Source: Gammaproteobacteria bacterium
GTDB taxonomy: Bacteria; Pseudomonadota; Gammaproteobacteria; CAMYNG01
Assembly: GCA_011051615.1 (NCBI GenBank)
Contig: DRKU01000067.1
Coordinates: 1 to 32,464, forward strand
DNA: 32,464 nucleotides
Direction of reading: 5' to 3'
This document shows, in pieces, positions 28,157 through 30,311 of this stretch (position 1 is the stretch's first letter; the number at the start of each line of letters is the position of its first letter). A model generated the notes under the pieces. The model saw nothing but the letters and a program-made list of their open reading frames with translations. It was not told the DNA's origin and made no database searches. A program made the translations under genes and the position numbers.

Positions 28157-29059
28157 ATGGCCGCCATGCCCCAGGACCCTGCCCAGTTCACATGGCCCGC
28201 GCCGGCCAAGCTCAACCTGTTCCTGCACATTACGGGTCGCCGTGACGACGGTTTCCACGAACTGCAGACCCTGTTCCAGTTTCTCGATCGCGGCGACCGG
28301 CTGCGTTTTGCGCCACGTGGCGACGGCGCCATCGTACGTCACGGCGGGCTGGCGGCGGTGCCCGCCGAGGATGACCTGGTGGTGCGCGCCGCGCGGGCCC
28401 TGCAGGCTCGCTGCGGGACGGACAGCGGGGTGGATATCTGGCTGGAGAAGGTGTTGCCGGCGGGGGGCGGTCTGGGGGGCGGCAGTTCCGATGCCGCCAC
28501 CACGCTGGTGGCCCTCAATGCCCTGTGGGACTGCGGTCTGGGGGTGGCGGAACTGGCCCGGCTGGGGCTGGAGTTGGGCGCCGACGTGCCGGTTTTCGTG
28601 CGCGGCGAGGCGGCCTGGGCCGAGGGGGTGGGCGAGCAGCTGGCACCGGTGGCCGGGCTCGGGGTGGACCTGCCCGAGCCCTGGTACGTGGTTCTCGCCC
28701 CGCCGGTAAGTGTCTCAACAGCGGAGATTTTTTCCGACCCCGCATTGATACGGGATTGCCCAGCCATTAAAATACGCGACTTCCTGGCGGGGCAGGTCAG
28801 CAATGTCTGTGAAAAGGTCGTCTTTCGCCGCTACCCGGAGGTAGCCAGGGCGCAGGGCGAGCTCGCCCGTTTTGCGCCGGCGCGCATGACCGGCACCGGT
28901 GCCTGCATCTTCGCCGCCTTCGACGACGAGGCCGCGGCCCGCGAGGCGGCGAAGGCCCTCGCCGGGCGCTGGCCACTGCTGGTGGCGCGGGGCCGCAACC
29001 GTTCCCCGTTGCAGACGGCACTGGCGACGTGGCGGGCGCAAGCCGGTGCGGGAAACTGA
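28157..29059 (+). CDS. ispE: 4-diphosphocytidyl-2-C-methyl-D-erythritol kinase
   Basis: WPAPAKLNLFLHITGRRDDGFHELQTLFQFLD; LPAGGGLGGGSSDAATTLVALN; ARMTGTGACIFAAFDDE. Good Shine-Dalgarno (gggagg) before ATG 28157. Confidence 0.97.
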   Translation: MAAMPQDPAQFTWPAPAKLNLFLHITGRRDDGFHELQTLFQFLDRGDRLRFAPRGDGAIVRHGGLAAVPAEDDLVVRAARALQARCGTDSGVDIWLEKVLPAGGGLGGGSSDAATTLVALNALWDCGLGVAELARLGLELGADVPVFVRGEAAWAEGVGEQLAPVAGLGVDLPEPWYVVLAPPVSVSTAEIFSDPALIRDCPAIKIRDFLAGQVSNVCEKVVFRRYPEVARAQGELARFAPARMTGTGACIFAAFDDEAAAREAAKALAGRWPLLVARGRNRSPLQTALATWRAQAGAGN

Positions 29060-29061
29060 AT

Positions 29062-29136
29062 TGGGCCGTCGCCAAGCGGTAAGGCACTGGGTTTTGATCC
29101 CAGCATTCGCAGGTTCGAATCCTGCCGGCCCAGCCA
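29062..29136 (+). tRNA. tRNA-Gln (anticodon TTG), CCA encoded
   Basis: tgggccgtcgccaagcggtaaggcactgggttttgatcccagcattcgcaggttcgaatcctgccggcccagcca; 7-bp acceptor TGGGCCG/CGGCCCA, anticodon stem CTGGG/CCCAG with loop TTTTGAT, T-arm GCAGG-TTCGAAT-CCTGC. Confidence 0.97.
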
Positions 29137-29143
29137 GACAAGC

Positions 29144-29319
29144 CTGATCTGTTTGCCTGGTGGCAAACAGATCAGCCAGCTGGCGGCAGGATGAGAACCG
29201 CAGGTTCGACAAATTCGTCGGGAACGAATTTGAACATTCCTGTCATGCGTTGCATGACAGGAATGGCCCGAAGGGCACTGTGCAGGGATGCACAGTGTAA
29301 TCCTGCCGGCCCAGCCAGA
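29144..29319. repeat. Hairpin cluster with a partial tRNA-Gln 3' duplication
   Basis: Perfect stems: 29144-29157/29162-29175 (14 bp), 29210-29218/29224-29232 (9 bp), 29235-29248/29252-29265 (14 bp), 29276-29284/29289-29297 (9 bp). 29299-29319 is identical to tRNA positions 29118-29138; 29199-29209 is identical to 29108-29118. Confidence 0.85.
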
Positions 29320-29348
29320 TTGAGCCAGTTTGAATTTTACGCACCAGG

Positions 29349-30311
29349 GTGAGTGACGTGGCAGACAGCAGCATGATGGTCTTTTCCGGGAACGCCAACC
29401 CGAAGCTGGCGCAGGCCATGGTGGCACGCCTCAACATGCCGCTGGGCAAGGCCACCGTGGGGCGTTTCTCCGATGGTGAGATCCAGGTGGAGATCATGGA
29501 GAACGTGCGCGGTCGCGACGTCTTCATCGTACAGCCCACCTGTGCGCCGCCCAACGCCAACCTCATGGAACTGATGGTGATGGTGGATGCGGTACGCCGT
29601 GCCTCGGCGGGGCGTATTACCGCAGTGATCCCGTATCTTGGTTACGCACGCCAGGATCGCCGTCCGCGCTCGGCGCGCGTGCCCATCACTGCCAAGGTGG
29701 TGGCCGACATGCTGTGCGGCGTGGGCACCGACCGCGTGTTGACGGTGGATCTGCATGCCGATCAGATCCAGGGATTCTTCGATATCCCGGTGGACAACGT
29801 CTATGCTTCGCCCATTCTGCTGGGCGACGTATGGCGGCAGAAATACCCCAATCTGATGGTGGTGTCGCCGGACGTGGGTGGCGTGGTGCGCGCCCGCGCA
29901 CTGGCCAAGCGCCTCGATGACGCGGACCTGGCCATCATCGACAAACGCCGGCCGCGCGCCAACGAGGCCAAGGTCATGAATATCATCGGCGATGTCGAAG
30001 GCCGTACCTGTGTCATCGTCGATGACCTGGTGGATACCGCCGGTACGCTGTGCCAGGCCGCCGGTGCGCTCAAGGAGCACGGTGCCGAGCGTGTGGTGGC
30101 CTATTGCACCCATGCGGTACTGTCCGGTCCGGCGGTGAGCAATATCAGCAACTCTGCGCTCGATGAGCTGGTGGTGACCGATACCATCCCGTTGCGCGAA
30201 GACGCGCAGCAGTGTGAACGGATCCGGCAACTGAGTGTTGCCAGCATGCTGGCCGAGACCATGCGTCGTATCAGCGACGAGGAATCGGTCAGTTCCATGT
30301 ACGTGGATTAG
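29349..30311 (+). CDS. prs: Ribose-phosphate pyrophosphokinase
   Basis: [111 protein letters not shown] start at 29349 or 29358. Confidence 0.98.

Follow-up and report, generated by a model that had tools for sequence, protein, structure and literature searches.

What placed a second, interrupted copy of a tRNA tail between a tRNA-Gln gene and prs? The window analysed here, a 32,464-nt stretch of a gammaproteobacterial contig (DRKU01000067.1), carries an intact tRNA-Gln(UUG) at 29062-29136, flanked by ispE (GHMP kinase domains) and by prs, with 212 nt between the tRNA and prs. An earlier note on this DNA had described a duplication of the tRNA 3' half within this spacer, the copy being split in its T-loop by a hairpin-rich insert, and had read it mainly as the att footprint of site-specific integration, with a structured RNA processed together with the tRNA as the alternative. 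We consider it probable (at roughly 0.78) that the unit is instead a tRNA-linked repeat, divergent but of the RtT / tyrT 178-bp kind, behind tRNA-Gln, composed of a tRNA-tail duplication and an inserted, non-autonomous mobile hairpin element, and co-transcribed with tRNA-Gln.

Architecture of the unit behind tRNA-Gln

The duplication was borne out: the 21-nt AATCCTGCCGGCCCAGCCAGA occurs exactly at 29118-29138 and again at 29299-29319, and CGCAGGTTCGA recurs at 29199-29209, with a gene-free gap of 160 nt between the two tRNA-tail copies. The second copy is indeed split in its T-loop by a separable hairpin element, spanning either 29210-29298 or 29210-29299 since the A at the junction fits on either side, and both the hairpins of this insert and the 14-bp hairpin that had been noticed right after the tRNA (29144-29175) are present in the sequence. 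A further part, absent from the earlier account, is an antisense arm at 29184-29199 (CGGCAGGATGAGAACC), 16 nt that are 88% reverse complement of the T-arm and that close the unit through a 9-bp outer stem and a 5-bp hairpin. The features of the locus are listed below, where R1 and R2 denote covariance models of the whole unit (built without E. coli) and of the insert only; the window copy is in the training set of both, and their E-values are rough.

29062..29136, + strand: intact host tRNA, tRNA-Gln, anticodon UUG (ARAGORN; Rfam RF00005, 64.7 bits)
29144..29175, + strand: spacer hairpin, 14 bp perfect, loop TGGT
29184..29319, + strand: whole RtT-like unit, consisting of antisense T-arm, T-arm 5' half, insert and tRNA 3' half (R1, RF00391, fold)
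29184..29192, + strand: 5' arm of outer stem P1, antisense to the 3' side of the tRNA T-stem; 9 bp with 29300-29308
29195..29207, + strand: hairpin H1, GAACC / GGTTC, loop GCA; the 3' arm is the tRNA T-stem/T-loop start
29210..29299, + strand: mobile-type insert in the T-loop, GGTTCGA / insert / ATCC (R2 match 29208-29300)
29210..29232, + strand: hairpin H2, CAAATTCGT / ACGAATTTG, loop CGGGA
29235..29265, + strand: hairpin H3, a 14-bp stem with loop GTT; longer here than usual, in a part that varies across the family
29266..29276, + strand: hairpin H4, GCCC GAA GGGC, GNA triloop; among the most conserved parts of the family
29277..29296, + strand: hairpin H5, ACTGTGC / GCACAGT, loop AGGGAT
29300..29319, + strand: second tRNA-Gln 3' half, from the 3' side of the T-stem through the 3' acceptor strand to CCA; an exact repeat

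The spacer hairpin at 29144-29175 has no T-run and is therefore no intrinsic terminator; it had no counterpart in the spacers of the relatives that were compared. A search of 28900-29450 for terminator- or promoter-like sites found none. An intrinsic terminator for tRNA-Gln was accordingly rejected, there being neither a T-run nor a terminator-like site in that interval, and because no such site was found between the genes, we infer that the unit would be transcribed as a 3' trailer of tRNA-Gln and/or as a leader of prs.

Folding, which the earlier note had proposed as a check, proved to be strong. As RNA, the unit (29184-29308, 125 nt, running on to ~29319) adopts a closed six-helix fold of -71.7 kcal/mol (z -9.9), the wider region 29062-29345 reaches z -9.0, and in both cases 0/200 shuffles folded as well. 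Folded as DNA, both strands of the unit give these helices as well (z about -10). In the fold of the whole region, the antisense arm pairs with the T-arm of the tRNA itself.

The structure is supported by covariation. Across 17 aligned copies, 96.0% of the cells in P1 and H1-H5 are paired (94.9% in P1, the first helix) and 19 pairs have changed on both sides, giving 75 both-side-change cells as compared to 19 +/- 3.4 in shuffles (0/500); this pairing signal is lost when the partner is shifted by 1-3 columns. For the insert alone, 32 copies yielded 139 such cells versus 44 in shuffles (0/500). G-U cells outnumber A-C cells 166:61 in the family alignment, which was itself fitted to the structure, and the tRNA-sense strand is therefore the strand kept foldable. 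The GNA triloop of H4 was seen in 125/125 copies matched by a search pattern that itself demanded GNA, and its middle base varies in the alignments.

A family of RtT-like units matched to their host tRNAs

The 178-bp repeats of E. coli tyrT/tyrV (RtT RNA, RF00391, rttR) have been known since 1978 and are usually regarded as an E. coli oddity. They stand in tandem behind their tRNA, and their parts follow the same order as in the window unit, namely GGATGAGAA.. antisense T-arm, loop, GGTTCGA, four hairpins, tRNA 3' end and CCA, with CCCGAAGGG and GAGTAATCC among the four hairpins of both. The window unit differs in its host tRNA (Gln and not Tyr), in being a single copy and in its extended H3, and its H2 and H5 loops carry GGA, whereas the E. 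coli repeats have no GGA loops. An open-access literature search on RtT and the tyrT repeats returned nothing on point.

RF00391 matches the window at 29170-29317 with 32.6 bits (E 2e-4 genome-wide), its sole match in that genome; this is below the curated gathering score of 45, and the unit is therefore called RtT-like and not filed as RF00391. At curated thresholds, the tRNA is the sole Rfam match in the window. R1 scores 95.4 bits at 29185-29307, a copy from its own training set, and gives 52-57 bits to the tyrT/tyrV repeats of E. coli K-12, which lie outside that set. Among 369 sampled Gammaproteobacteria, R1 finds the family in 162 (E <= 1e-3), mostly behind tRNAs; RF00391 does so in 66 at E <= 1e-3 and in 23 above its curated cut-off. 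Many of the sampled genomes are fragmented metagenome assemblies, and in the large genome sets 8-16 candidates were scored per genome, so that copy numbers there are lower bounds. Some relatives exceed the RF00391 cut-off, for example one behind tRNA-Tyr with 63.1 bits (L145), and such copies bridge the window-type units and the E. coli tyrT repeats.

Looking for other tRNA genes followed by the same hairpins, as had been suggested, was productive: a 287-nt query against relatives returned insert matches in other genomes. Four tandem units stand behind tRNA-Gln in genome G047, and G020 has units behind tRNA-Val and tRNA-Ser, most such units including the 3' end of the tRNA next to them. Tandem arrays with periods of 150-180 nt occur behind many tRNA isotypes.

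The association with tRNAs extends to the sequence of the host. All 30 of the 30 best loci have a tRNA gene beside the element, and in the fetched stretches 113 of 150 family copies lie downstream of a tRNA on the same strand, in most cases at a distance of 20-70 nt, the hosts being tRNAs for Gln, Tyr, Ser, Arg, Glu and Pro. The 19-nt 3' ends of 112 copies agree on average at 17.0/19 positions with their own host tRNA versus 11.4 with other isotypes, and 67 of these ends are perfect. Of 86 distinct first units, 68 carry the exact 12-nt end of the host tRNA, 32 of these 68 also repeating the spacer downstream of the tRNA (0.4% in controls), and host and antisense arm agree at >= 11/14 positions in 51% versus 7%. 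The whole unit therefore behaves as a tRNA-tail duplication that stays matched to its tRNA. The window unit has the hallmarks of RtT in this respect, lying behind a tRNA whose 3' end it carries and having the common secondary structure with covariation. Units were also often found a few hundred bases from csrA (G001:C167, G126:C1:2053154-2053900, G003:C1, G016:C104, G137:C23, G230:C16, G253:C57, G330:C22), probably because tRNA-Ser and tRNA-Arg genes commonly follow csrA; the loops of these units have CsrA-like GGA motifs.

Comparing the tRNA-Gln/prs spacers of relatives, another check that the earlier note had named, revealed this site both with and without the unit. tRNA-Gln lies directly upstream of prs in 75/80 loci, mostly 23-115 nt from it and, by a simple motif check, without the unit; in the same genus (L031/L122), a plain spacer of 28 nt without the unit separates the two genes. 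At this locus, L032 has a unit following the tRNA, and in L037, L039 and L124 an intact tRNA-Gln has beside it a tRNA-Gln copy that is broken precisely in the T-loop. Since the unit is absent in a sister species, and thus dispensable within the genus, no essential role is expected.

The four-hairpin insert at other genomic sites

Judged by its matches elsewhere, the four-hairpin insert is an independently dispersed, non-autonomous repeat of Pseudomonadota. Copies without tRNA flanks have H2-H5 in common, with the junctions GA/..GAGTA/A (the slash marking the junction). R2, which matches the window insert at 29208-29300 with 71.2 bits (a training sequence), has 73 matches in G250, 73 in G140, 22 in G129, 16 in G126, six of them with equal scores, and 3 in the genome of the window itself, and it matches 80/299 phylum-wide genomes, including families of other proteobacterial classes. 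Copies at non-tRNA sites lie in ERIC elements, in MITE-like repeats and in other surroundings. In G126 and G250, copies are found within larger repeats, and in G336 (L240, L241) within a palindromic repeat; as some non-tRNA matches are embedded in this way, the copy number overstates independent insertions.

In G574 and G519, insert copies interrupt ERIC elements, and L341 has the ERIC primer core (primer sequence in PMC4327755). Both empty and filled sites were found, the empty ERIC of G574 reading GGGGTGA/GTAAG.. versus GGGGTGA/CAAATC.. in the filled one. By R2, this is the same four-hairpin insert as in the window unit, the host site being ERIC in the one case and the tRNA tail in the other. 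Insertions of ~70 bp inside ERIC elements were reportedly described by Sharp in 1997 and by De Gregorio in 2005; the identity of our insert with the published ~70-bp insertion is putative.

Other copies interrupt tRNAs at a different point: in tRNA-Ser copies, the insert sits in the D-loop and not the T-loop (L179:621-695, L210:305-382, L234:621-694 and 796-869), and in L179 and L210 an intact tRNA-Ser follows the interrupted copy. Outside tRNAs, a flanking outer stem of >= 6 bp is present in 21% versus 8% (n = 58), a modest excess of hairpin-loop targets. Like REP/RAYT and other non-autonomous palindromic repeats, the window insert is short, hairpin-forming, dispersed and non-coding, with no target duplication seen; it differs from REP elements in having four hairpins as opposed to one or two, in the GA/A junction and in its association with T-loops and hairpins.

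Several further copies deserve mention. The window's genome has a second insert copy at L276:1518-1591 (G000:C225:6851-6924), part of which recurs in tandem at the contig end; it reads as sitting in an antisense tRNA-Leu T-arm, identified by eye, so that the orientation of the insert would not be absolute. Copies within or beside coding sequence were seen at L229:218-291, 327-404 and 619-693 (G129) and at L351:151-228 (G140); one of these adjoins the C-terminal end of an apparent large serine recombinase gene, and one occupies an identical, apparently intragenic site in two genomes. In L348, L353, L344, L345 and L207, inserts are nested or head-to-tail with one another, which suggests that the end of the element recreates its own target.

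Phage or plasmid carriage of the unit was considered and rejected, as the phage and plasmid records (enterobacterial prophage, plasmid) gave matches of just 28-33 nt, in the H1/H2 region. Two Klebsiella phage records, of prophages (MK416010.1:57497-57525, MK422448.1:3277-3305), have a 29-nt match to the H1/H2 region near one record end.

Origin of the unit and possible roles

The main reading of the earlier note, in which an island targeting the tRNA was excised and left an att duplicate behind, would account for the exact duplication of the tRNA 3' end, a trait that the unit shares with tRNA-associated att sites. It was rejected: the 212 nt between tRNA-Gln and prs contain no integrase, cargo or island remnant, the duplicate is interrupted and bears an inverted arm, this arm and the same dispersed four-hairpin insert recur in other species, and the family forms tandem arrays behind many tRNA isotypes, all of which makes an att footprint close to negligible. 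Pure DNA slippage, in which the quasi-palindromic T-arm would seed a palindrome through replication error and without any mobile element, agrees with the near self-complementarity of the T-arm and with the coexistence of inverted and direct tRNA-end duplications in the units. For the insert it is refuted, because slippage at one locus cannot supply a sequence whose homologues lie at unrelated sites in different genera and classes, also without tRNA flanks. Slippage may be the origin of the antisense T-arm; as an account of the whole unit, it is very improbable.

The unit could also be a structured RNA that selection maintains for its function. It would then be a conserved small RNA, or a module for processing, transcribed together with tRNAs as rtT RNA is, with GGA loops that bind CsrA/RsmA and act as a sponge. 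GGA is overrepresented in the loops of H2 (99/115 copies, 12% expected) and H5 (97/133, 8% expected), the window itself having CGGGA in H2 and AGGGAT in H5, and this repetition of GGA in hairpin loops is of the CsrB kind. H5 often reads CAGGA(T/C/A)G, corresponding to the CsrB repeat motif CAGGA(U/A/C)G, and CsrA prefers a GGA that is presented in a hairpin loop (PMC7652899, PMC5027483). The excess of G-U over A-C cells, with the tRNA-sense strand structured, also speaks for an RNA, and by hand tally csrA is present in 144/162 element-bearing genomes. However, csrA is also present in 169/207 element-negative genomes (odds ratio about 1.8 by the same tally, a weak association), and GGA loops are kept where csrA was not found (H2, 16/18 copies), against a dependence on csrA. 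E. coli has csrA, yet its tyrT repeats have no GGA loops, and GGA loops also occur in part among the copies dispersed in ERIC, MITE-like palindromes and genes. In 21/86 loci, tRNA and unit are set apart by a terminator-like hairpin, and this speaks against the unit having an obligatory role as part of the tRNA transcript. Together these data argue weakly for a CsrA-sponge role, and selection for a functional RNA seems an improbable explanation of the unit.

We therefore favour a divergent RtT-like repeat built from a tRNA tail and a mobile insert. At the level of sequence comparison, its architecture, covarying structure, family, matching to the host tRNA, presence and absence among relatives, and the homology of its insert with dispersed copies (including those in ERIC) are established. 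Its first component is an incomplete duplication of the tRNA 3' half, inverted in part (antisense T-arm and loop, and sense 3' half to CCA); the inversion would stem from the near self-complementarity of the T-arm. The second is the ~75-90-nt four-hairpin element (H2-H5), placed in the T-loop of the duplicate at GTTCGA/ATCC, and the duplicated tail would have been its landing site. From the distribution of the copies we infer that this element is mobile; its spread would be that of a non-autonomous repeat inserting into stem-loops at GA/A. Recombination between the short direct repeats of the tRNA would multiply, delete and homogenise the units, keeping them matched to their tRNA; such recombination would explain the arrays, the empty relatives and the chimeric interrupted tRNAs.

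For a structured unit transcribed with the tRNA, which the earlier note had offered as its alternative, the E. coli tyrT/tyrV repeats provide, by analogy, a precedent of the same architecture. The transcript of the window unit may serve processing, stability or termination, as has been reported of the rho-dependent tyrT region. The P1 stem would compete for the T-stem sequence of the tRNA; as the antisense arm pairs with the tRNA T-arm in the fold, tRNA maturation or the structure of the prs leader might be mildly affected, and any regulatory role of the unit is hypothetical.

More tentatively, the E. coli tyrT repeats, the ERIC insertions and the tRNA-Gln unit might all be forms of one widespread four-hairpin mobile element that inserts at GA/A in the loops of stem-loops, the T- and D-loops of tRNAs included, via single-stranded DNA or RNA, by a mechanism undescribed for known bacterial transposons; we regard this wider proposal as rather unlikely in its entirety.

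The tyrT-type layout occurs behind many tRNA isotypes across Gammaproteobacteria, in 162/369 genomes by R1 versus 23 above the cut-off of RF00391. Interrupted tRNA copies, which an annotator might mistake for introns or att sites, would find an explanation in this family. The tyrT repeats and the ERIC insertions, curiosities that were described separately, would thereby be tied together: the core of the tyrT-type repeats proves to be a dispersed element also present in ERIC repeats, and this gives the tyrT repeats a testable origin.
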